From contig NZ_JAJNCU010000008.1 in the NCBI RefSeq assembly GCF_021026095.1, positions 1 to 64,000 on the forward strand: DNA of 64,000 nucleotides. Reading direction: 5' to 3'. Source of the DNA: Salinicoccus halitifaciens (lineage in GTDB: Bacteria > Bacillota > Bacilli > Staphylococcales > Salinicoccaceae). Both the position numbers and the translations under genes were made by a program. Under the pieces are notes generated by a model. The model ran no database searches. It saw nothing but the letters and a program-made list of their open reading frames with translations, and was not told the origin of the DNA. This document shows positions 2,945-48,796 of this stretch, piece by piece. Numbering within the stretch: position 1 is the first letter of the stretch; the number at the start of each line of letters is the position of its first letter.

Positions 2945-5900
2945 ATGAGAGTCAATATTTGGACGGGCGTCAGCGGTACGGGCAAGACGGACCAGATGTT
3001 CAAGGAGATCGAAGCGATAACGCTGGATGAGCCGCTCGGATCGAGCATCTACATCATCACGCCGACCCAGAACACACTGCAGTATGAACGCATACTCACC
3101 GCCGGCAGGAATGAAAACCTCACCGGCAGCCTCCGGGCCGGCGTGTTCAGCTTCCAGAGGTTCATCTGGCATATATTCAACGAAATCGGCGGGAACAGCC
3201 GTGAGACGCTGAGTGAAAGCGGCCAGGTGATGCTCCTGCATAAGCTGATGGATGATATGAAGGACAGCTTCAAATATTATCAGGATTCGAGCCAGTACAT
3301 CAGATTCTCCAAAAAGGTGCTCGATATGCTGAAGGAATTTAGGACATACCAGGTGTCGGTCGACGACATCGGCAGCGTCAGATCCGAAAAGGAGCGCTAC
3401 CAGGACAAACTTTACGACCTGACGCGGATTTATGAGAACTGGCTCGAGCTCATCGGAGAGCTTAATATAGAAGATCTGAACATCATCAATACATTCATGA
3501 CGGCACTGGATATGAATCCCGACATCAAAGTGCTGAAGGACGCCGTGATCTACATCGACGGTTTCCACAACTTCACGGAAAGCGAGTTCCAGCTGATTGC
3601 GGCACTGGCGAAGCGGGTTAAGGCGATCAATATACTCCTCACCCACAAGGGTGAGAATAAAACCCTCTTCAGAAAGACGGATGCGAGCATCACACGCCTT
3701 CAGGAGCTGCTCGGCAGCGCGGTCAACATCGTCCATTTCGAGGACGAGTTCAGGCGCTCCGGGAAGATGGGGCTGATCCAGCTCGAGGAATACTTCTCGA
3801 AAGGAAAACCCATGACCCTCTATGACGGCATCACCATCACGGAAGCACCGAACATCATCGATGAGGTGACGAATGTCGCACGTGAAATCGAGCGGCTGAC
3901 AGCAGACGGCATCCATTACAGGGAGATCGGGATACTTTACCGCGACGAGTCCTATATCCGTCATATCGAATCGATATTCCGGAGGTTCGACATCTCCTAC
4001 CATGTGGACCAGAAGGTGCCGATGCACTCCCACCCGTTCGTCCAGTTCATCATCTCGGTGCTGGAATGCTACATGCGCAGGTTCGAATTCACCGCCCTGA
4101 TGGATGTGCTGAAGGCGGAATATATGACAGGACCCGAAGAGCGTGACTTCATATTCCAGTTTGAAAACTTCGCACTGGAGCGCGGACTGACAAGAAGTGC
4201 ACTTTTCAAAGATGAGCTCTTCACCGTGAGGCGGTTCAGGGACGGCGAAGGTGAGATCAGGGAGATCGATGTAAGTGATGAGGTGGCGGACCTCCTCGAC
4301 TTCAAAAATGACGTGCTGGGCCGGCTGTCCCGCCTGTTCGACCGGTTCGACGAAGCGGAGAACGTCCTACAGTACATTACGATCATCCATGAGTTCCTTG
4401 CAGAAGAGGGCATCATGGAGAAGGTCGAAGCGGAAATCCATGCGCTTGAGGAGACCGGCGACATCGTGAAGCGTGATGAGACGGAGCAGGCATTCAACCA
4501 TTTCGTGAAGATGCTGGATGATGCATACATCGTCTTCAAAGAGGAGCCCGTCTCATTTGAAATCTTCCATGAAACGTTCAAGGACGGCCTTTTGAATGCG
4601 GAATTCAGCCTGCTCCCGTCGACGATCGACCAGGTCATCATCGGCAACCTCGACCTCGCCAAAGTCGAAAATAAGAAGCATGTCTTCATCATCGGCATGA
4701 ACCGCAATGTGATGCCGAGGGAGACGCGGAGCAACGCGCTCATCAGGGAAGAGGAAAAAGAACTCTTCGAAGCCCACGACATCATCCTTTCGCCGAGCGC
4801 CAAAGTGCTCGCACAGGATGAGCGGTTCGTCTTCTACCACGGGGCGACCCGGGCAAGCGAGGGGCTCCACATCAGCTTTTCCAACATGCTGCAGGGCGGG
4901 GAGCCGACCAAGATCAGCCCCTTCGTCGAAGAGATCATCCCGCAGCATGACTACCAGAGGGATCTGGTGTACCGCCGGACGTCCCTGTACGGGAAGTTCG
5001 AGCCTGAAAAACTGGTGTCATCGGCACGCAGCATGGAGGCGCTGATCCATCTGAAGCTCAGGGAGCTGCTCGGCATACACAACGTTCCGATCAGTGAACT
5101 CGCGCGCTATCCGGAGTATGCGACATGGATCCGGCTGTACCAGATCATCAAAAGCCATGATACGACCGGCATGTACAAGAGGCTGAACCTGAGCCTCACC
5201 GATGACAACCGCGCGACCCCGATCACCCCGGCCACCGCCGAAGCACTTTACGGCGAATCGATGCATGCCAGCGTCTCGAGGTTCGAGTCGTTCAACCGCT
5301 GCCAGTTCCAGCACTTTGCGAATTACGGCCTCAAGCTGAACGTCAGGCAGCCTTACAAGGTGGCGCCGCTCGACCTCGGTAACCTCTACCACCATGTGCT
5401 TGAAAATGTGACGCGCAAGCTGGATTTCACATTCCAGCATGAGGATGCACACATCGAAACAGTCACGGAGACGGCGATCGACGAGGAAGCACAAGCGATA
5501 CAGCACGGCATCTTCAATGATTCATATTACAATGCCTCGCTTAAGCGGAGGGCAAAAGATGCGCTGACCCGGCTGATTTATTTCATGCGGGACATCGAGC
5601 GTCTCGGCGAGTACAAAATTGCCCATGTCGAACTCGGATTCGGCAAATCACGTGATTCCCTCGGCGAAGTCACCTTCGAAAGCGATGCCGGCAGGAAGAT
5701 TTCCTTGAGGGGTAAGATCGACCGCATCGATGTATATGAGAGCGGCGGCAATGCCTATGTCAACCTGATCGACTACAAATCGAGCACGAGGAAGATTTCG
5801 CGTGCAGGGATACTGAACGGCCTCGAGCTGCAGATGATCACTTACATGCATGTGCTGACAACGAACGGCACCGATCTGTTCGAAGGCGAAGTGCGGCCGA

Positions 5901-6436: not shown

Positions 6437-9400
6437 ACAATATGAAGCGATCCATTACACGGGCTCGGACATACTGATTTCCGCCGCAGCAGGCAGCGGA
6501 AAGACGACCGTGCTCGTCGAGCGGATCATACAGAACATCGTGGGCGGCAGGTATTCTGTGGACGAACTGCTCGTCTCCACCTTCACGAACATGAGTGCAA
6601 GGGACATGAAGGAAAAGATCGAAAAAGAGCTGCGCAAAAAGCATGCGGAGACGGGGGACCCGAGGCTGAACGAGGAGATACTGAAGCTGAACGGGGCGCA
6701 TATCTCGACGCTCCACAGCTTCTGCCTCTACCTTATACGGATGCACTACAACGTCATCGGCATCCCGCCGGATATGCGGACGCTGTCGGATATAGAAGGC
6801 CAGATCAGGCTGGACGGGGTCATCGACCGGGTGCTTGAGGACTACTATGCGGAGGGGACGGATGTCTTCACGGACTTGACGTTCATGACATCTTCGGATA
6901 AGAACAACAGCGGCCTGGTTGAAATCATCAAAAACCTCTATTTCACCGCGGTGGCGAGCCCCGATCCGCTCAGTTTTCTCGAAAGCCGGCTTGACCAGTA
7001 CGAGGACGCATCGCATCTTGAGGCCATCGTCGATTCATATAATGAAATCATCAGGCATAAGCTGATTGCACTCGAAACGTCGCTCGATGAACTGCATAAG
7101 GGGTACAACGCCGTCTACCATGAAGACATCAAGGAGACGCAGAAGCGCGATGCATTTGATGCGCTTTCCGACCTGATGCGTGCGGTGGAGCGGGCCCGGG
7201 AGGCGAACCTCCGGGGCGAAGCCGTCGATCTGCCGCCCTTTGCCCTGAAGGACGGGCGAACGGCATTCTTCAAAAAGATCGCGGATCCCTATGAGAAGAA
7301 ACACCTGACCGACACCCAGAATAAAGTCAAGCAGTCCTATAATGAACTGCTGTCACTCCCTGCCTACACCGTGGAGGATGCGGCGGATGAACTGTCGCCG
7401 ATGAATGAGATGAACAACACCCTCATCCGCATCGCCATCAATGTGCTGGAGAGTTTCAGACATCAGAAGAACCTCCGGAATGAAATGGATTTCTCCGATT
7501 ATGAGCACTATGCCCTCGCGATACTGAATGCGAATGACCAGGAAGTGGCTGAAATTTACCGGGAACAGTTCAAGGAGATCATGATAGACGAATATCAGGA
7601 CATCAACCGGGTGCAGGAGGCGATCATCTCGCTGATCAAGACCGGGGATGAGAAGGACGGCAATTTGTTCATGGTGGGGGATGTGAAGCAGTCCATCTAT
7701 AAATTCAGGCAGGCGGACCCGTCGCTCTTCATCGAAAAAGCGAACCGCTTCAAGGGACCGGGCAGCGGGAAGATCATCAATCTGAACCACAACTTCAGGT
7801 CGAGGGGTGAAGTGCTGGATCTGACCAACAGCCTGTTTGAAAGGATCATGGACGAAACGGTCGGTGAAATCGAATATGATGACACCCAGAAGCTCGTCCA
7901 GGGCAACTACTTGGATGCACCGGAAATCAGACAGGAGCTCCATGTGATCGAAGAAGCCGATGAGATCGAAGGGAATGCCGAAATCAGGCACATCATCGAT
8001 GTCATCAAGGATAAAGTGTCACGCGGGGCGGATTACAGGGACATCGTCATCCTGACACGCAATACGACGGATAATGAAGACTACCGGAAAATGCTGAGTG
8101 AAGCGGGTCTGCCGGTTTACGTCAACAACCGCACCGGGTACCTCGACACCCTTGAGGTGCGTTCGCTCCTGAGCATACTGTCGATCATCGACAACCCGCT
8201 GCAGGACGATCACTTCACCGGCACGATGCGCCTGCCACAGTTCGATTTCAACGAGGAGGATATCGCGAAGATCCGTGCCTGTTCGGATGCGGTCTATATG
8301 TATGAGACCGCCCGGGAATATGAGGCGGAGGACGATCTTAAGAAGCGGCTGGACGGCTTCTTCACGGTGCTCGATGAACTGCGCACACAGGAGCGGTATT
8401 TGAGCGTACCCGAACTGATCGATGAAATTTATTACCAGTTCAATCTTCTGGAATATTTCTCAGGGCTGCCGGGCGGGCAGAACAGGCGGGCGAACCTGAA
8501 CGGGCTCGTCGAGAAGGCGATGGAATTCGAGGAGATGTCGCATATCTCCCTCTACCAGTTCATCACGACGATCACAAGGATGATCGCGGACGGTCAGGAC
8601 TTCGGCGAAGAGAACACCGTGTCGCCGGATGACGACATCCTCCGGGTGATGACGATCCATGCATCGAAGGGGCTCGAGTTCGACCATGTCATCTATGCCG
8701 GCATACACAGGAACCTGAACTTCAGGGACCTGCATGCCAGGGTGATCGTCCATGCGGACTACGGCATCGGCTTCAAGCGTTTCAACAGCCGTGACAATAC
8801 GATCCTGCCGAGCATCCATTCAATCGTCATGCAGGAATACATCAAGAAGGAGACGATTTCAGAGGAGATGCGCCTGATCTATGTGGCGATGACGCGGGCG
8901 GTGGAGCAGCTGACGATCCCCGTCGTCTTCAAGAAGGAACAGAAGGAGAAATACCTCTACAACGGCGGTATGGTGCTCGCCGATTACAGGCTGAACATCA
9001 ACAGCGTGCAGGAACTGATCTTTCCGGTCCTGAAATACTTGATCGATTCGGAGTATGATTTCCTTGAACTCATCGATGTTGAAATCAAGGATGTGGCTGA
9101 AGAGGAGAAGATGTATCATCTGTCTCCGGAGACGCTTTTGAATGTGGAAGCGGGACGGGGGGAATCCCTGTATGAGAAGTTCAGCCACCGCTACCACAGT
9201 CCGGGGCTCACGGACCTCGTCCATAAAGAGTCCGTCACGGAAATCAAGCGCAAAAACAGTACGCATCCGGATGATGCCAAAATCGTCCGGCATACGAGGA
9301 ACGTCAACCTGCGGGAGCCGGAATTCCTGAACCGGGGTGTTGAAGCACCGATCTTCGGTACGGTCATGCACGAAGTGATGATGCACCTGATGAATGACTG

Positions 9401-43592: not shown

Positions 43593-43646
43593 AAGTATGT
43601 GAATACGTTTACATTATGAACAAATTGTGAAAAGCTGTTCAAAATG

Positions 43647-43675: not shown

Positions 43676-43683
43676 TTATACAT

Positions 43684-43789
43684 GAAAATTTTATCACTGA
43701 AAAACATACCCCTTTGTTAAAACAGTGAAAAATTTCTCCCATCCCCTTTGTTTGAGCAGCACACTATAGAAGGTGTGCTGCTTTTTTTA
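43684..43789 (+). ncRNA. rsaE: RsaE/RoxS small regulatory RNA
   Basis: A 105-nt independent transcription unit between pepF and the oxidase operon. It carries the RsaE hallmarks in order: ACATACCCCTTTGTT near 43704-43718, then GTGAAAAATTTCTCCCATCC near 43725-43744, then CCCCTTTGTTT, and a terminator hairpin (AGCAGCACAC / GTGTGCTGCT) followed by TTTTTT. The C-rich single-stranded motifs pair with ribosome-binding sites of target mRNAs. In S. aureus RsaE lies next to pepF and represses central metabolism and opp genes; in B. subtilis its homologue RoxS is controlled by ResD and Rex. Identification is from remembered sequence and position, so it should be confirmed by a covariance search. Confidence 0.92.
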
Positions 43790-43844: not shown

Positions 43845-43860
43845 TGTGACCAGGATCACA
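43845..43860 (+). promoter_or_regulatory. Crp/Fnr-type operator upstream of the ba3 oxidase operon
   Basis: TGTGACCAGGATCACA is a perfect TGTGA-N6-TCACA palindrome. A TATACT -10 box at 43882-43887 would place the start near 43894, so the site centre (43852.5) would be at -41.5, the classic class II activator position. No recognizable -35 box is present, consistent with activator dependence. A Crp-family regulator is encoded just beyond this operon. Confidence 0.8.
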
Positions 43861-43932
43861 ATGGCGCTCCCGTATTGGTTATATACTTGAATCAGATCAA
43901 AGAACGGAAATGAATCGACGGGAGGGATATCC

Positions 43933-44091
43933 ATGAAAAAGAGACTGAGAGAAGAGGAAAAGCCGGTTGAAAGAAGCACGGAGGAGCAGTTGTCCCTGAA
44001 GGGCACACTGTTCTCCACAATATTCTTCGTGGGCGGATCGATCGTCCTGTGGACCGGTGTACTGCTCGTTTTATTCATCATGCGCTTTTAA
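43933..44091 (+). CDS. cytochrome c oxidase subunit IIa-like small protein
   Basis: A 52-residue protein too short for many gene callers. A charged N terminus (MKKRLREEEKPVERSTEEQ) precedes one transmembrane helix (about 27-50) ending IMRF. Small single-helix subunits of this form accompany ba3-type oxidases (subunit IIa, stabilizing subunit II). The ATG follows GGGAGGG with good spacing. First gene of the oxidase operon, 27 bp before subunit II. Confidence 0.75.
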   Translation: MKKRLREEEKPVERSTEEQLSLKGTLFSTIFFVGGSIVLWTGVLLVLFIMRF

Positions 44092-44118
44092 AAAGGATGG
44101 GAAAGGGGTTTACAAAAC

Positions 44119-44589
44119 ATGAAAATGAACAGGATGGAAGAAATATGGATGATCATCGCAATCGGCATCATCATCATCGCGATGGGCATCACAGGCTACC
44201 AGGCTTTCGCACTCGGCATGGCGCCGCCTTCACACCAGGAACACATCGATCCCCAGACGGTCGAGGAACATCCGGAATTCTCCGAGCCCGGTGTTTATGA
44301 GACGGGGGAGAACCAGTATGAGGTAATCATGACGTTGCAGGCGTTCCAATTCGAGCCCGGTGAAATCACGGTGCCGGAAGGTGCGGAAGTGACATTCAGG
44401 ATGGCGACGAAAGATGTCGTGCATGGTGTCAATGTGCCGCATACGAACTTGAACACGATGGTCGTGCCGGGGTATATCCAGGAGATCACACAGACATTCC
44501 ACGAAGCGGGCGAGTACATCATGGTATGCAACGAATACTGCGGCGTCGGCCACCAGACGATGTCCGCAACGATCACGGTGGAGGAGTGA
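44119..44589 (+). CDS. ba3-type cytochrome c oxidase subunit II
   Basis: Membrane-anchored copper subunit, 156 residues. One N-terminal helix (about 9-30) is followed by a cupredoxin domain with a complete CuA site: His102, Cys137, Cys141, His145 and Met148 (CNEYCGVGHQTM). The single helix and short length fit ba3/caa3-B-type enzymes rather than the two-helix A-type subunit II. CuA accepts electrons from cytochrome c. The leader GGATGGGAAAGGGG is complementary to two C-rich motifs of RsaE. Confidence 0.93.
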   Translation: MKMNRMEEIWMIIAIGIIIIAMGITGYQAFALGMAPPSHQEHIDPQTVEEHPEFSEPGVYETGENQYEVIMTLQAFQFEPGEITVPEGAEVTFRMATKDVVHGVNVPHTNLNTMVVPGYIQEITQTFHEAGEYIMVCNEYCGVGHQTMSATITVEE

Positions 44590-44594
44590 AGAGA

Positions 44595-46238
44595 ATGAAT
44601 AGACCACTTAAAATCGTCACAGCAAACAAGCTTGCATTGACGAACTTCGCAACAGCTTTCGTGCTCCTCCTAGTCGGGGGATTCCTCGGCCTCATCCAGG
44701 GGCTGAACCGTGCCGGTGTACTTGAAATCGTCGGCGGCATCAACTACTACGAAGTGCTGACGCTTCACGGAATTTTCCTGATACTCGCTTTCACGACGCT
44801 TTTCATGAACGGCTACTTATGGTCGGCGACGGACTATGTCCTCGGCGGACTGACCAGGGGCATACGGATGATGGGGTGGGTCGCATACGGGCTGTTCATG
44901 TTCGGTGCACTCCTCGTCACCATCATGGTGCTCGCGGGTGAAGCGACGGTGCTGTACACGTTTTATGCACCGATGGCTGCAAATCCGTGGTTCTATATCG
45001 GACTGGTCTTCGTCGTACTGAACATCTGGCTCTCAGGCCTCGGCGTGTTCATCAGCGCATTCCGCTGGAAGCGGCGGAATAAGGGTAAGCACCTGCCGCT
45101 GTTCGCATTCTTCGCGGTCGGCGTATATATCCTCATAACTTTTGCGACGTTGTTCGTCGCGGCGGAAGTGTTCTACATCATCCCATGGACGTTCGGCTGG
45201 ATCGATACAATAAATGTCATGCTGACGCGTACTTTATTCTGGGCATTCGGTCATACACTCGTCAACGTCTGGTACCTGGTCGCGGTCTCGGCATGGTACA
45301 TGGTCACACCGAAAGTCATCGGCGGCAAGCTGTTCAGCGATTCGCTCGCGAGGGCCGTCGTCATACTGATCGTCGTCCTGAACGTGCCCGGCGGTTTCCA
45401 CCATCAGATCGTGGATCCGGGCTTCTCGGAAGGATTGAAGTTCATGCATCTGTTCATGAGCCTTGCGATCGCCGTACCGTCGCTTCTGACTGCTTTCGCA
45501 TTGTTCGCCATGCTTGAACGGACGGGCCGCCGTCGCGGCGGTAAAGGCCTGCTCGGCTGGTTCTGGACACTGCCGTGGCATGACGTGCGGTTCCTCACCA
45601 TCATGCTTGCGATGATTTCATTCATCTTCGGCGGTGCCGGCGGGATCGCGCAGACCAACAACCAGCTGAACCAGGTCGTCCACAACACCCTGTGGGTGGT
45701 CGGGCACTTCCATGTAACCGTCGGTGTCGCGGTCGTGCTGACATTCTTCGGCCTGGTTTACTGGCTCATCCCGCATCTGTCGGGCAGGGTGCTGACCAAA
45801 AAGATCCATAACCTCGGCATCTGGCAGACGATGCTCTGGACTGTCGGCATGCTGTTCATGACACTGTCGATGTCCTACGTCGGTCTGATCGGCTCCCCGC
45901 GCCGTACGGAATACACGACTTACGGCGGCAATGCCACGGCGCTCGAATGGGACCCGTACCTGCTTTTCGTCGGGGCCGGAGGCATACTACTTTTTGCCGG
46001 TGTCGTATTGATGGTCTATATCGTCTATCACCTGATGTTCCTCTCTCCGAAAGGCTATACACCGTTCATGGTCGTCGAAGAGGAGGAGGAAGATGCGCAT
46101 AAAACACCGAAATGGACGGAAAATTGGGGACTCTGGGTCATCGTTGCTGTGCTGATCATCTCCATGGGTTATCTCGTGCCGCTTGTCGATCTGATCGGCA
46201 ATGCGCCGCCGGGCTCCCCGCCGATCCGGACGTTTTAA
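44595..46238 (+). CDS. ba3-type cytochrome c oxidase subunit I
   Basis: Catalytic haem-copper subunit with about 13 membrane helices, 547 residues. Ligand motifs: LTLHG with the low-spin haem His58, FGHTLVNVWYLVAVSAWY carrying a CuB His and the crosslinking Tyr position, HHQIVDPGF with the paired CuB histidines, and GHFHVTVGVA with the haem-iron histidines. B-type oxidases reduce oxygen with high affinity. The ATG at 44595 follows GGAGTGAAGA just after subunit II; the open frame further upstream overlaps subunit II and is rejected. Confidence 0.94.
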   Translation: MNRPLKIVTANKLALTNFATAFVLLLVGGFLGLIQGLNRAGVLEIVGGINYYEVLTLHGIFLILAFTTLFMNGYLWSATDYVLGGLTRGIRMMGWVAYGLFMFGALLVTIMVLAGEATVLYTFYAPMAANPWFYIGLVFVVLNIWLSGLGVFISAFRWKRRNKGKHLPLFAFFAVGVYILITFATLFVAAEVFYIIPWTFGWIDTINVMLTRTLFWAFGHTLVNVWYLVAVSAWYMVTPKVIGGKLFSDSLARAVVILIVVLNVPGGFHHQIVDPGFSEGLKFMHLFMSLAIAVPSLLTAFALFAMLERTGRRRGGKGLLGWFWTLPWHDVRFLTIMLAMISFIFGGAGGIAQTNNQLNQVVHNTLWVVGHFHVTVGVAVVLTFFGLVYWLIPHLSGRVLTKKIHNLGIWQTMLWTVGMLFMTLSMSYVGLIGSPRRTEYTTYGGNATALEWDPYLLFVGAGGILLFAGVVLMVYIVYHLMFLSPKGYTPFMVVEEEEEDAHKTPKWTENWGLWVIVAVLIISMGYLVPLVDLIGNAPPGSPPIRTF

Positions 46239-46266
46239 TGATTAATATCAAGGGAGGTCATGATGG

Positions 46267-46899
46267 ATGAAAAAAGAACTCATAATCAGCGGAGTCATTT
46301 TATTCCTGGGCGGCCTCCTCATATTTTTCTCGACAAGCGGTTTCTCGGCATTCACGATCGAGCAGCAGAGGCTGAATGAACTGAAAGAGCGGCCGCCTGA
46401 ATTTCCGAACATTGAAGTCGTCGACAATAAAGGACGCGCCTACAATTTCGATGAATTCGAAGGTAAGCATATGCTGATGACGTTCATCTACACTTCATGT
46501 GCCACCGCTTGCCCTGAGATGTCATCGAATATGAAATATATCTACGATATGATCGATGCAGGGCAGTATCAGGATGATTTGGTGTTCCTCAGCATCTCAT
46601 TCGATACGGAAAGGGATACGGTTGAAGTGCTGGACCGCTATGCCGGATACTTCGAGGCGGACGGCGAAACGTGGCGGATGCTCCGTGTGCCGGATGAGGA
46701 CGATTTGTCCGGAATCCTTGAGATGTACGGAGTCACGGTCATCCCGGAAGGTGATACGGATTATCAGCACAACACATCGTTTTATCTGATAGAGCCGGAC
46801 GGCAGGCTCGGCGAGGTGCTCGATTACCGCGATGTCGACCATGCTGCGGAAACCGTCGTGCGAGCGGTTGAAACAGACGGGGAGGTGGGGCTGAGATGA
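46267..46899 (+). CDS. SCO1/SenC family copper chaperone
   Basis: Thioredoxin-fold membrane-tethered protein, 210 residues, that delivers copper to the CuA site of oxidase subunit II. An N-terminal helix (about 7-24) is followed by the redox/copper motif TSCATACPEMS (Cys78, Cys82) and the distal His168 in YQHNTSFYL. All three copper ligands are present. It is 28 bp after subunit I and overlaps the next gene by 4 bp. Confidence 0.93.
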   Translation: MKKELIISGVILFLGGLLIFFSTSGFSAFTIEQQRLNELKERPPEFPNIEVVDNKGRAYNFDEFEGKHMLMTFIYTSCATACPEMSSNMKYIYDMIDAGQYQDDLVFLSISFDTERDTVEVLDRYAGYFEADGETWRMLRVPDEDDLSGILEMYGVTVIPEGDTDYQHNTSFYLIEPDGRLGEVLDYRDVDHAAETVVRAVETDGEVGLR

Positions 46900-47474
46900 A
46901 ACAGTTCTGGTACGGCCTTGCGCTCCTCGTGTTCCTCGCGCTGCCCCCGGTCCGGGAGTTGCTCGAATCGGTGATGGCCTTCCACATGCATATGCAGATG
47001 ATGCTTTTATTCGTCTCCGGATTGCTGATGGCCCCATTCTTCCAGAAACGATTCGGCCATATATTCGACGGTTTCAATAAAACCGGCCTCCCGGGCGTTG
47101 TGATCTTCCTCGTCATCGTGGTCTACTGGATGATGCCGCGGGCGATGGATGAGGCACTTGAAATCTGGTATGTGGAGCTGTGGAAATTCATATCACTGCC
47201 GTTCCTTGCCGGCGTGCCGCTCCGCGACAGCTGGAAGAAGATCTCGAAAACTTTCGAAGTCATGCTCTTTCTGGTGCTGATGACGGTATTCTCGGTGATG
47301 GCGTACTTGTATATATTCGCAGAAAGCACATTATGCAACAACTACCTGATAATCGACCAGCAGACCGTCGGCTGGGGCTTTGCCTTCTTCACACTGTGCA
47401 TCATCATGTATATACTGCTCGTCCTGTTCACCGACCAGAGCCAGTACTTTGGCGACGATTCCGAAACTTCATGA
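46896..47474 (+). CDS. membrane protein of the ba3 oxidase operon, possible assembly factor
   Basis: A 192-residue protein with five or six hydrophobic helices. An early FHMHMQMMLLFVSGLLMAPFF segment has His and Met residues spaced as in metal-handling membrane proteins, and VYWMMPRAMDEAL follows. This resembles CtaG/DUF1404-like proteins encoded beside cytochrome oxidases; the match is by pattern only. ATGA overlap with the SCO gene and the downstream terminator make it the last gene of the operon. Confidence 0.65.
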   Translation: MKQFWYGLALLVFLALPPVRELLESVMAFHMHMQMMLLFVSGLLMAPFFQKRFGHIFDGFNKTGLPGVVIFLVIVVYWMMPRAMDEALEIWYVELWKFISLPFLAGVPLRDSWKKISKTFEVMLFLVLMTVFSVMAYLYIFAESTLCNNYLIIDQQTVGWGFAFFTLCIIMYILLVLFTDQSQYFGDDSETS

Positions 47475-47478
47475 AATA

Positions 47479-47516
47479 AACCCCGCATACCTTGGATGGT
47501 GTGCGGGGATTTTTCG
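47479..47516 (+). terminator. terminator of the ba3 oxidase operon
   Basis: Stem CCCCGCATAC / GTGTGCGGGG followed by ATTTTTCG. Confidence 0.9.
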
Positions 47517-47537
47517 TTTTGCTGATGGATCGTCTCC

Positions 47538-48028
47538 ATCGCTCACCGGGATCGCTGCTTGAGCGATAGACGGCTCCCATCGCTCACCGGGATCGCTGCT
47601 TGAGCGATAGACGGCTCCCATCGCTCACTGGGGTCGCTGATTGCGCGATAGACCCTTCCCATCGGCCAAGTGGGGATTGGTTTGGCCGATAGACTGCCGC
47701 CATCGGCCAAGTGGGGTGTGGTTTGGCCGATAGATTGCCGCCATCGGCCAAGTGGGAGTTGGTTTGGTCGATAGATTGCCGCCATCGGCCAAGTGGGGTG
47801 TGGTTTGGTCGATAGATTGCCCCCATCGGCCAAGTGGGAGTTGGTTTGGCCGATAGACTGCCCCCATCGGCCAAGTGGGAGTTGGTTTGGCCGATAGACC
47901 GCCGCCATCGGCCAAGTGGAGATTGGTTTGGCCGATAAATTGCCTCCAACAGCTCATCGCGTACGCCGGGACGGTCCGTTAAACGCCCAACAGCTCATCC
48001 CGCATCCTGGGACGGTCCGTTAACCACA
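47538..48028. repeat. 41-bp hairpin repeat array, 12 units
   Basis: Units start every 41 bp from 47538. Three are CTC-type (ATCGCTCA ... TGAGCGAT; the third has a TTGCGCGAT right arm), seven are GCC-type (47661-47907; ATCGGCCAA ... TTTGGCCGAT or TTTGGTCGAT) and two are terminal modules (from about 47947 and 47988; CAACAGCTCATC ... GGGACGGTCCGTTAA). Order and polarity match the arrays at 37.8 and 54.7 kb. The array is open in all three minus-strand frames but has no ribosome site or promoter. Flanked by two terminators. Confidence 0.95.
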
Positions 48029-48051
48029 AAAACGCGCCTGCCCCGGCGCGT
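48026..48051 (-). terminator. terminator of the Crp-family regulator
   Basis: On the minus strand, ACGCGCC / GGCGCGT stem followed by TTTTTG. Confidence 0.9.
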
Positions 48052-48065
48052 CTCGTATTAAAAGC

Positions 48066-48743
48066 CTAAAGATAAGATTCCAGCTCTTCAAGATCGACGA
48101 TCATCAGGCCCGTGCTGCCGATTTCCAGTATGCCGAGCTTCCGGAATATGGAGAGGTTGCGGCTCACCGTTTCGCGGGTGAGCCCGATCATGCTCGCCAT
48201 CTCCTGCTTCGTCAGTTTCAAAGTAATTTCACGCCGCCCGTCGTCAAGTACAAGCCCATGTGCGTATGCAAGCCTGCGGATCAGCAGGAGGACCTGTTCA
48301 TCGGTCGGCTTCAGTATCTTCTCCTGGAGCCGGTGCTGCAGGTCGATGATGAGTTCACCTATGTAATGAAACAGCTTCACCGCAATCTCGGGCTCGCGCC
48401 GTATGACGTCTTCGAAATCCTTCTTGCTTATGAAGATCACTTCGGAATCCTCAGTCGTGACGGCACTGGCGGGGTACGGGTCCTTCCTGAAGACCGCGTG
48501 GTGGGGGAACATTTCACCTTTACCGAAGAAGTTGATGATCTGCTCGCGTCCCTCCTCATCAATCCGGTATATCTTCACATTTCCGCTCACCACGAAGTAG
48601 AAGTTGACCATCTCCTCACCCATATGGAACAGATGAGACCCCCTCTCGACGTTCCTGTGATGGGCGATTCCCGCGACGGCGGATATTTCTTCATCATCCA
48701 GCGCTTCAAATATCTTCATTGAGGATAAGTATTCTTTCAGCAA
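48066..48743 (-). CDS. Crp/Fnr family transcriptional regulator
   Basis: A 225-residue regulator with an N-terminal cyclic-nucleotide-binding-like beta barrel (VERGSHLFHMGEE, YFVVSGNVKIYR), a dimer helix and a C-terminal helix-turn-helix (TKQEMASMIGLTRETVSRNLS). The recognition helix RETVSR keeps the Arg/Glu/Arg pattern that reads TGTGA half sites. No cysteine cluster is present, so it is not an iron-sulfur Fnr. Start: an open frame begins at ATG 48764, but a perfect AAGGAGGTGA lies inside it, 8 bases before TTG 48743, which I prefer. It may activate the neighbouring oxidase operon through the site at 43845. Confidence 0.88.
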   Translation of the reverse strand: MLKEYLSSMKIFEALDDEEISAVAGIAHHRNVERGSHLFHMGEEMVNFYFVVSGNVKIYRIDEEGREQIINFFGKGEMFPHHAVFRKDPYPASAVTTEDSEVIFISKKDFEDVIRREPEIAVKLFHYIGELIIDLQHRLQEKILKPTDEQVLLLIRRLAYAHGLVLDDGRREITLKLTKQEMASMIGLTRETVSRNLSIFRKLGILEIGSTGLMIVDLEELESYL

Positions 48744-48796
48744 AAGGCTCACCTCCTTCATCATCCACTATACCATCCCAGCAGAATAAAAAAATC

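Follow-up and report, generated by a model that had tools for sequence, protein, structure and literature searches.

The operon studied here raises two questions: which gas its enzyme reduces, and by what its promoter is controlled. It lies at positions 43933-47474 of a 64,000-nucleotide (nt) stretch of the Salinicoccus halitifaciens genome (contig NZ_JAJNCU010000008.1, positions 1 to 64,000), which as a whole is called the window below, and it comprises five genes in the order cbaC-cbaB-cbaA-senC-cbaD (Table 1). A first-pass annotation had described it as a ba3 oxidase operon bracketed by a Crp-type class II activator site and by a gene of the Crp/Fnr family, the product of which is here termed Crp-A. 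The results point to a different enzyme under the same kind of control: Crp-A appears, with a probability of about three in four, to be the dedicated class II activator of an operon for a CuA-type nitric oxide (NO) reductase.

Identity of the enzyme

In the subunit I of the window, N224 aligns with Y237, and H220 with H233, of the Thermus thermophilus ba3 oxidase (1ehk). The metal histidines, H220 among them, are conserved both in the alignment to 1ehk and in the alignment of the group to which the subunit belongs (group A). The motif HTLVN, with Asn at the tyrosine position, is present in all 16 aligned group A subunits I (16 and not 17, as the subunit I of genome G003 is split over two matches), and H[AP]LVY, with the tyrosine kept, is present in all 17 aligned subunits I of a paralogous group (group B).

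Oxidases carry this tyrosine, and NO reductases have E, Q, D or N in its place (PMC3475470; the literature is cited by PubMed Central number, for the passages concerned). The purified NO reductase of Bacillus azotoformans, qCuANOR, is encoded by genes with Asn at this position, and its cluster has the order cbaC1-cbaB1-cbaA1-senC1-cbaD1 (table in PMC3475470). When the bNOR/qCuANOR class is defined by an Asn that replaces the cross-linking Tyr while the histidines are retained, following PMC3475470 and a table of PMC8756737, the window subunit I falls within it. The order of the cluster is also that of the class, the cbaD assignment resting on position and on a DUF1404 score below the cut-off. 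The catalytic cross-linking tyrosine of the ba3-type O2 reductases is missing, N224 being found instead. Because of the Asn at the catalytic tyrosine position and the gene order equal to that of the qCuANOR cluster, the operon probably encodes a CuA-type NO reductase rather than an O2-reducing ba3 oxidase, and the label given in the first-pass annotation is not supported.

Structure of the promoter and chance level

The palindrome in front of the operon, TGTGACCAGGATCACA, is followed after 21 nt by the -10 box TATACT. Counting six bases from TATACT to +1, a transcription start is predicted at 43894, which would place the centre of the palindrome at -41.5, the position assigned to it in the first-pass annotation. 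The absence of a -35 box, also claimed there, holds as well: the best of three spacings (16-18 nt 5' of TATACT) fits TTGACA at one of six positions. The sequence geometry of a class II Crp-type promoter, namely a centre at -41.5, a matching -10 box and a weak or missing -35 box, is found in the window and recurs in its relatives, and the class II reading is strengthened by this recurrence.

The significance of the palindrome within one genome is limited. The window contains 24 matches at up to two mismatches, against 27.3 expected. The genome-wide search for more TGTGA-N6-TCACA sites that the first-pass annotation had proposed gave no second exact copy, the single one being at this promoter, and 79 places at up to one mismatch (the exact copy among them) versus 41 for the reversed control. 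GTGA-N6-TCAC followed by TANNNT at 20-22 nt matches once in the genome, at this promoter, and nowhere in the reversed control. Under equal base frequencies, each kind of hit is expected two to four times by chance at the genome scale, and therefore the occurrence in a single sequence is not significant alone. It is the comparative conservation of the sequence, and not the single genome, that is taken as decisive for the reality of the palindrome. The original observation of a palindrome, its -10 geometry and an adjacent Crp-family gene is confirmed.

Conservation and co-occurrence in the host order

The host order (Staphylococcales) was surveyed in 157 genomes. A group A subunit I (at least 62% identity) is present in 17 of them (G000-G007, G013, G022, G027, G028, G030, G033, G049, G054 and G056), and Crp-A (at least 44% identity) is present in exactly the same 17, which are related and do not amount to 17 independent events. 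In genomes that have group B and lack group A, Crp-A is not matched at E <= 1e-25. In 11 of the 17 genomes the cassette is flanked by pepF and yjbH. Neither of these two genes occurs in the fetched stretches L083, L217 and L218-L220, in which Crp-A is still present, and L075 ends at a contig end.

A site of the form [TC]GTGA-N6-TCAC[AG] stands 5' of the first gene in every one of the 17 cassettes, the form having been fixed after 13 cassettes had been inspected. Over 11 representatives, the commonest base is found on average 10.2 times at an arm position, compared with 6.3 times at the six positions of the centre and 5.5 times in the flanks. The best-scoring -10 box lies 20 or 21 nt past the site in 13 of the 17 promoters. 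With near-duplicates removed (17 promoters reduced to nine), this spacing is found in seven of nine, compared with a mean of 0.48 and a maximum of 4 in 2000 shuffles.

Relics and variants of the cassette were also seen. Genome G028 has a second, interrupted Crp-A copy (L221:6085-6984) beside a yjbH tail fragment; this copy is 67-79% identical to that of the window, is probably a relic of transfer, and accompanies an intact copy with 50% identity to that of the window. Genome G014, in which neither group A subunit I nor Crp-A was found, has a remnant (L205, about 4110-5403) consisting of the site, a -10 box and the small first gene, directly followed by yjbH. In the Jeotgalicoccus-type genomes G013 and G007, the operator is part of an extended perfect hairpin with a T run behind it (L077, about 4644-4680, plus strand; L078, about 8072-8109, minus strand), and by its sequence this structure also resembles an intrinsic terminator of transcripts arriving from upstream.

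Related loci in other Bacilli

A search of 398 Bacilli genomes with subunit I gave 23 matches at E <= 1e-170, and 20 of the matched regions were fetched (the window itself, G054 and G234 being omitted). Thirteen of these loci are of the Asn type and seven of the Tyr type. The site together with TANNNT is found within 700 nt 5' of subunit II in 10 of the 13 Asn-type loci versus one of the seven Tyr-type loci. In the ten Asn-type loci the spacing is always exactly 21 nt, though 20-22 nt had been allowed. The background of this pattern is 15 occurrences in 502,960 nt, or 0.02 per 700 nt, these hits included. A gene like that of Crp-A occurs in five of the 13 Asn-type stretches and in none of the seven Tyr-type stretches.

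In the bNOR promoters of L266, L267, L272 and L273, TGAGAATNATTATCA or TGATAATCATTATCA, which we take to be Fur-like boxes, falls in the interval from the Crp site to the -10 box. The window promoter has no box of this type at the equivalent place.

The Crp-A protein

The description of the regulator in the first-pass annotation agrees with what is found: a Crp/Fnr gene with a RETVSR helix adjoins the operon on the minus strand (48066-48764 with the longer start), and the cysteine cluster of Fnr is missing. The TTG at 48743 is preceded by AAGGAGG and agrees with the alignment start of most homologues and with the end position given in the first-pass annotation. Pfam matches to PF00027, PF13545 and PF00325 give a cyclic nucleotide monophosphate (cNMP)-binding-like domain and a Crp-type helix-turn-helix, so that Crp-A belongs to the Crp/Fnr superfamily, and its AlphaFold model (mean pLDDT 88.3) has GlxR and Mycobacterium tuberculosis CRP (MtbCRP) as its nearest folds. 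RETVSR is kept across the rows of alignment A1 with one RETVNR variant. None of the 11 rows of A1 contains a cysteine, nor does any of the 10 in A2, from which L149 (a partial contig) and L154 (an interrupted Crp-A) were omitted, and the 4Fe-4S cysteines of FNR proper are thus lacking. Of the two proteins in the genome with HTH_Crp_2 matches above the cut-off, Crp-A gives the better match; the other, Crp-C, has PETLAR and not RETVSR as its recognition helix. Among named relatives, the nearest found is Salinicoccus kekensis, the Crp-A of which is 94% identical.

In the HMMER alignments, G-E and R-T of MtbCRP, presumably the residues that bind the phosphate of cyclic AMP, face P87-H88 and Y97-P98 of Crp-A, which are invariant in the family. 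Crp-A thus lacks the phosphate-binding E and R-S/T of CRP proper. With the pocket residues replaced in this way, cyclic AMP was rejected as the signal, and cyclic nucleotides are unlikely ligands of Crp-A.

H44, H88 and H89 are invariant in the Crp-A alignments of the host order, and H89 aligns with H77 of CooA, which we take to be a heme-ligand histidine. Heme ligation via H89 was considered on this ground and is kept only as part of a more novel reading, for although the alignment is suggestive, the six counterparts outside the host order have V (five) or A (one) at this position, and H (two), N (three) or Y (one) at the position of H88. The heme idea is weakened because H89 and H88 vary in these counterparts. 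It seems rather doubtful that Crp-A represents a new subfamily of cysteine-free gas sensors which would bind heme or a metal via His44, His88 and His89 and act as dedicated NO-responsive bNOR activators in a Bacilli-wide class II scheme.

Paralogous loci and other palindromes

Group B subunit I is present in 17 of the 33 genomes of the host family (Salinicoccaceae), and a match to another Crp-type protein, Crp-B, is found near it in all 17 (loci L085-L090 and L222-L232; partial in G004). The promoters concerned have a TGTGA-N6-TCACT site and match the class II pattern in 17 of 17, the best -10 box being at 21 nt in nine. After removal of near-duplicates (17 promoters reduced to 10), five of ten remain so spaced, compared with a shuffle mean of 0.52 and a maximum of 4.

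For other targets of Crp-A, the surroundings of 25 more places with an exact site or the class II pattern were fetched, and the neighbours were viewed for 24 of them (L208 was omitted). Several of the further sites sit inside genes. The Aliicoccus genome (G006) has an exact site (L186:2589-2604) 5' of a TIGR04053 radical SAM gene, which is related to heme b and d1 synthases and shares its contig with the reductase. Two places recur. In G022 (L189:2601), G028 (L199:2506) and G027 (L202:2466), an exact TGTGA-N6-TCACA with an AT-rich centre abuts the TATAAT of a gene for a 172-aa membrane protein; this does not look like a class II arrangement, and resembles a Rex-type repressor site more closely. 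The other recurrent place adjoins a gene for a short-chain dehydrogenase and is seen in G004, G007 and G013, the G004 site being within an upstream frame. The centres at both places are mostly AT-rich and fit Rex at least as well, and these may be Rex sites.

Evidence against the proposal

Several observations weigh against the proposal that Crp-A is the dedicated activator of an NO reductase operon. In the host order, the best-scoring -10 box is elsewhere in four of the 17 promoters (G006 and three of Macrococcoides type), although TACACT or TACAAT is still present at 20-21 nt. The three Macrococcoides-type promoters have a better TATTAT at 42 nt, with TTTACA 18 nt upstream of it, and this would place the site near -62, which is a class I position. 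The Crp-A frame is interrupted in G013 (L077:8239-8912) while the site and the enzyme are intact, which reflects either a natural mutant or a draft error, and in the draft genome G003 Crp-A is split into two matches. Outside the host order, five of the ten site-bearing loci show no gene like that of Crp-A within the stretch fetched, three of the 13 Asn-type loci (L269, L270 and L276) have no site, and SCO1 and DUF1404 matches follow in just seven of the 13. Among the nine listed loci, TANNNT agrees with TATAAT at six positions in one, at five in three, at four in four and at three in one. A rough hydropathy count gives three hydrophobic segments in the DUF1404 protein of the window, and six helices are predicted for cbaD (PMC3475470).

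A further objection is that group B, which keeps the tyrosine, has a Crp neighbour and a site of its own, and the arrangement is therefore not specific to NO. Since dedicated Crp-type control is common to members with and without the tyrosine, the anatomy alone cannot fix the signal of Crp-A as NO; the first-pass annotation had left the signal open, rightly so.

An internal source of NO is not evident either, as no NirK is found above the cut-off in the 157 genomes. Weak NirK matches in 29 genomes were rejected as such a source, because the open frames behind 32 of the 35 listed matches are at least 477 aa long, exceeding the 326-position model, and these matches are probably other multicopper oxidases. 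With no NirK above the cut-off, a role in detoxifying NO that arises elsewhere is no less likely than one in denitrification.

Alternative explanations

The earlier reading, that of an operon for a ba3 oxidase which reduces O2 and is subject to class II control of the Crp type, agrees with the closest solved structures, which are those of the T. thermophilus ba3 enzyme, and with the Pfam matches to COX1 and COX2. Set against these are the Asn found in all aligned group A members and the qCuANOR order of the cluster, and the reading is considered improbable. About as improbable is that the palindrome is a Rex operator through which an NADH-responsive repressor controls the operon. A Rex gene is present in the genome, and Staphylococcus aureus Rex and ArcR both bind motifs like TGTGA-n6-TCACA (PMC2883068). 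The window site, however, has six mismatches of 18 to the Rex 18-mer TTGTGAAW4TTCACAA, its relatives have four to eight, and it does not qualify as a Rex site; on these mismatches Rex was ranked low as the binder. Moreover, nine of the 17 sites start with CGTGA, four of the six spacer bases in the window are G or C while S. aureus Rex favours an AT-rich spacer (PMC2883068), and the position at -41.5, with no -35 box, is one appropriate to an activator.

Similarly improbable is that Crp-A acts on the operon as a repressor, or that it has another target and its linkage to the operon is accidental. Some loci do have the site without a neighbouring Crp gene, but Crp-A and the enzyme occur in the same 17 genomes in several contexts, the exact site is single in the genome, and the -35 box is missing. 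A considerably stronger candidate, though still short of an even chance, overlaps with the proposal made here: Crp-A would be a class II activator that senses low oxygen, the redox state or a metabolite, and not NO. The Tyr-intact group B oxidases share the arrangement with Crp-B, and NO reduction under microoxic conditions has been suggested for the B. azotoformans bNOR (PMC11388526). Counting against a signal other than NO is that Crp-A tracks the NO reductase and not the O2 reductase, being undetected (at the E value given above) in genomes with group B only.

Other features of the window

The positions of the features described are listed in Table 1.

Table 1. Promoter elements, genes and small RNA at the NO reductase-type locus of the window
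Feature	Position	Strand	Remarks
Crp-type palindrome TGTGACCAGGATCACA	43845-43860	+	TGTGA-CCAGGA-TCACA; centre 43852.5; 0 mismatches
-10 box TATACT	43882-43887	+	21 nt between palindrome and box
Small membrane subunit, cbaC-like, 52 aa	43933-44091	+	ATG start 43933; one hydrophobic segment; same-place homologues in host order
CuA subunit II, cbaB-like	44119-44589	+	COX2 and cupredoxin Pfam matches; CNEYCGVGHQTM in translation, presumably the CuA motif
Heme-copper subunit I, cbaA-like, NO reductase type	44595-46238	+	PF00115; Asn224 replaces ba3 tyrosine 237
SCO1/SenC copper-insertion protein	46267-46899	+	PF02630
Membrane protein, cbaD-like	46896-47474	+	PF07185 (DUF1404), 29.1 bits vs cut-off 29.4; 4-nt overlap with SCO1 gene
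Crp-A, Crp/Fnr-family regulator	48066-48743	-	RETVSR helix; no Cys; likely TTG start at 48743, ATG alternative at 48764
RsaE/RoxS-like small RNA, between pepF and operon, outside operon	43682-43785	+	Rfam RF01820, 69.1 bits, E 2.1e-11, gathering score 79

At the Rfam gathering threshold there is no match in the window, and the RsaE/RoxS-like RNA emerges below that score. The rsaE gene of Staphylococcus epidermidis is also 3' of pepF (PMC6435200), and RoxS/RsaE responds to NO via ResDE/SrrAB (PMC4409812). A palindrome with one mismatch at 43598-43613 was tried as a second site of the operon and rejected, since it sits 5' of this RNA and more likely belongs to the promoter of the latter. It is conserved, and it may be a part of that promoter. 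Between the operon and the Crp-A gene (47536-48023) there are arrays of 41-bp tandem repeats with inner palindromes (such as ATCGGCCAA ... TTGGCCGAT).

Proposed mechanism and significance

In the proposed scheme, the operon would produce a CuA-type NO reductase together with accessory proteins for copper insertion and in the membrane. Its promoter has a -10 box of good quality and lacks a -35 box. We infer that a Crp-A dimer binds the palindrome at -41.5 and, acting as a class II activator, brings in RNA polymerase, so that NO reduction would be switched on when Crp-A senses its signal. From the analogy with DNR and NnrR, that signal would most likely be NO, an associated N-oxide or a low-oxygen condition.

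KEGG lists CuA NO reductases as cytochrome c oxidases (PMC11388526), and among the matches listed from the open-licence literature no paper on their transcriptional control was found. If the proposal is true, the conserved site would be a marker that helps to separate CuA NO reductases from true oxidases, and the fixed-spacing site, together with its dedicated regulator in several lineages, would provide a simple handle on when these bacteria make N2O or resist NO.

Comparison with known systems

The NO-responsive nor activators of Proteobacteria, DNR and NnrR, use FNR-type half-sites, as opposed to TGTGA here. Like them, Crp-A is a Crp/Fnr protein linked to an NO reductase; unlike them, it is linked to a different enzyme class, and in the Crp-A sequence search DNR (3dkw) comes after GlxR, FNR and CRP entries. 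Crp-A shares with NnrR the lack of iron-sulfur cluster cysteines (PMC8139620). With CooA, a heme-based CO sensor, it shares the Crp fold and the alignment of H89 to H77, and it differs in being free of cysteine and in the V or A found at H89 in all six outside counterparts.

ArcR of S. aureus is described as another Crp/Fnr protein with a Crp-like binding motif (PMC2883068), and differs from the role proposed for Crp-A in that it affects the arginine deiminase pathway. In Bacillus licheniformis the Crp/Fnr gene fnr2 adjoins the NO reductase gene qnorB (PMC4719734), a likeness by description to a system in which the reductase is a qNOR. The closest counterpart is the qCuANOR/bNOR of B. azotoformans, for the cluster of which no regulator is named in six passages on regulation. 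As described in PMC3475470, it has the same five-gene order as the window operon, with a small membrane peptide, a CuA subunit II, an Asn-type subunit I, SCO1 and a membrane protein. The likeness is drawn from the published description of the B. azotoformans cluster.

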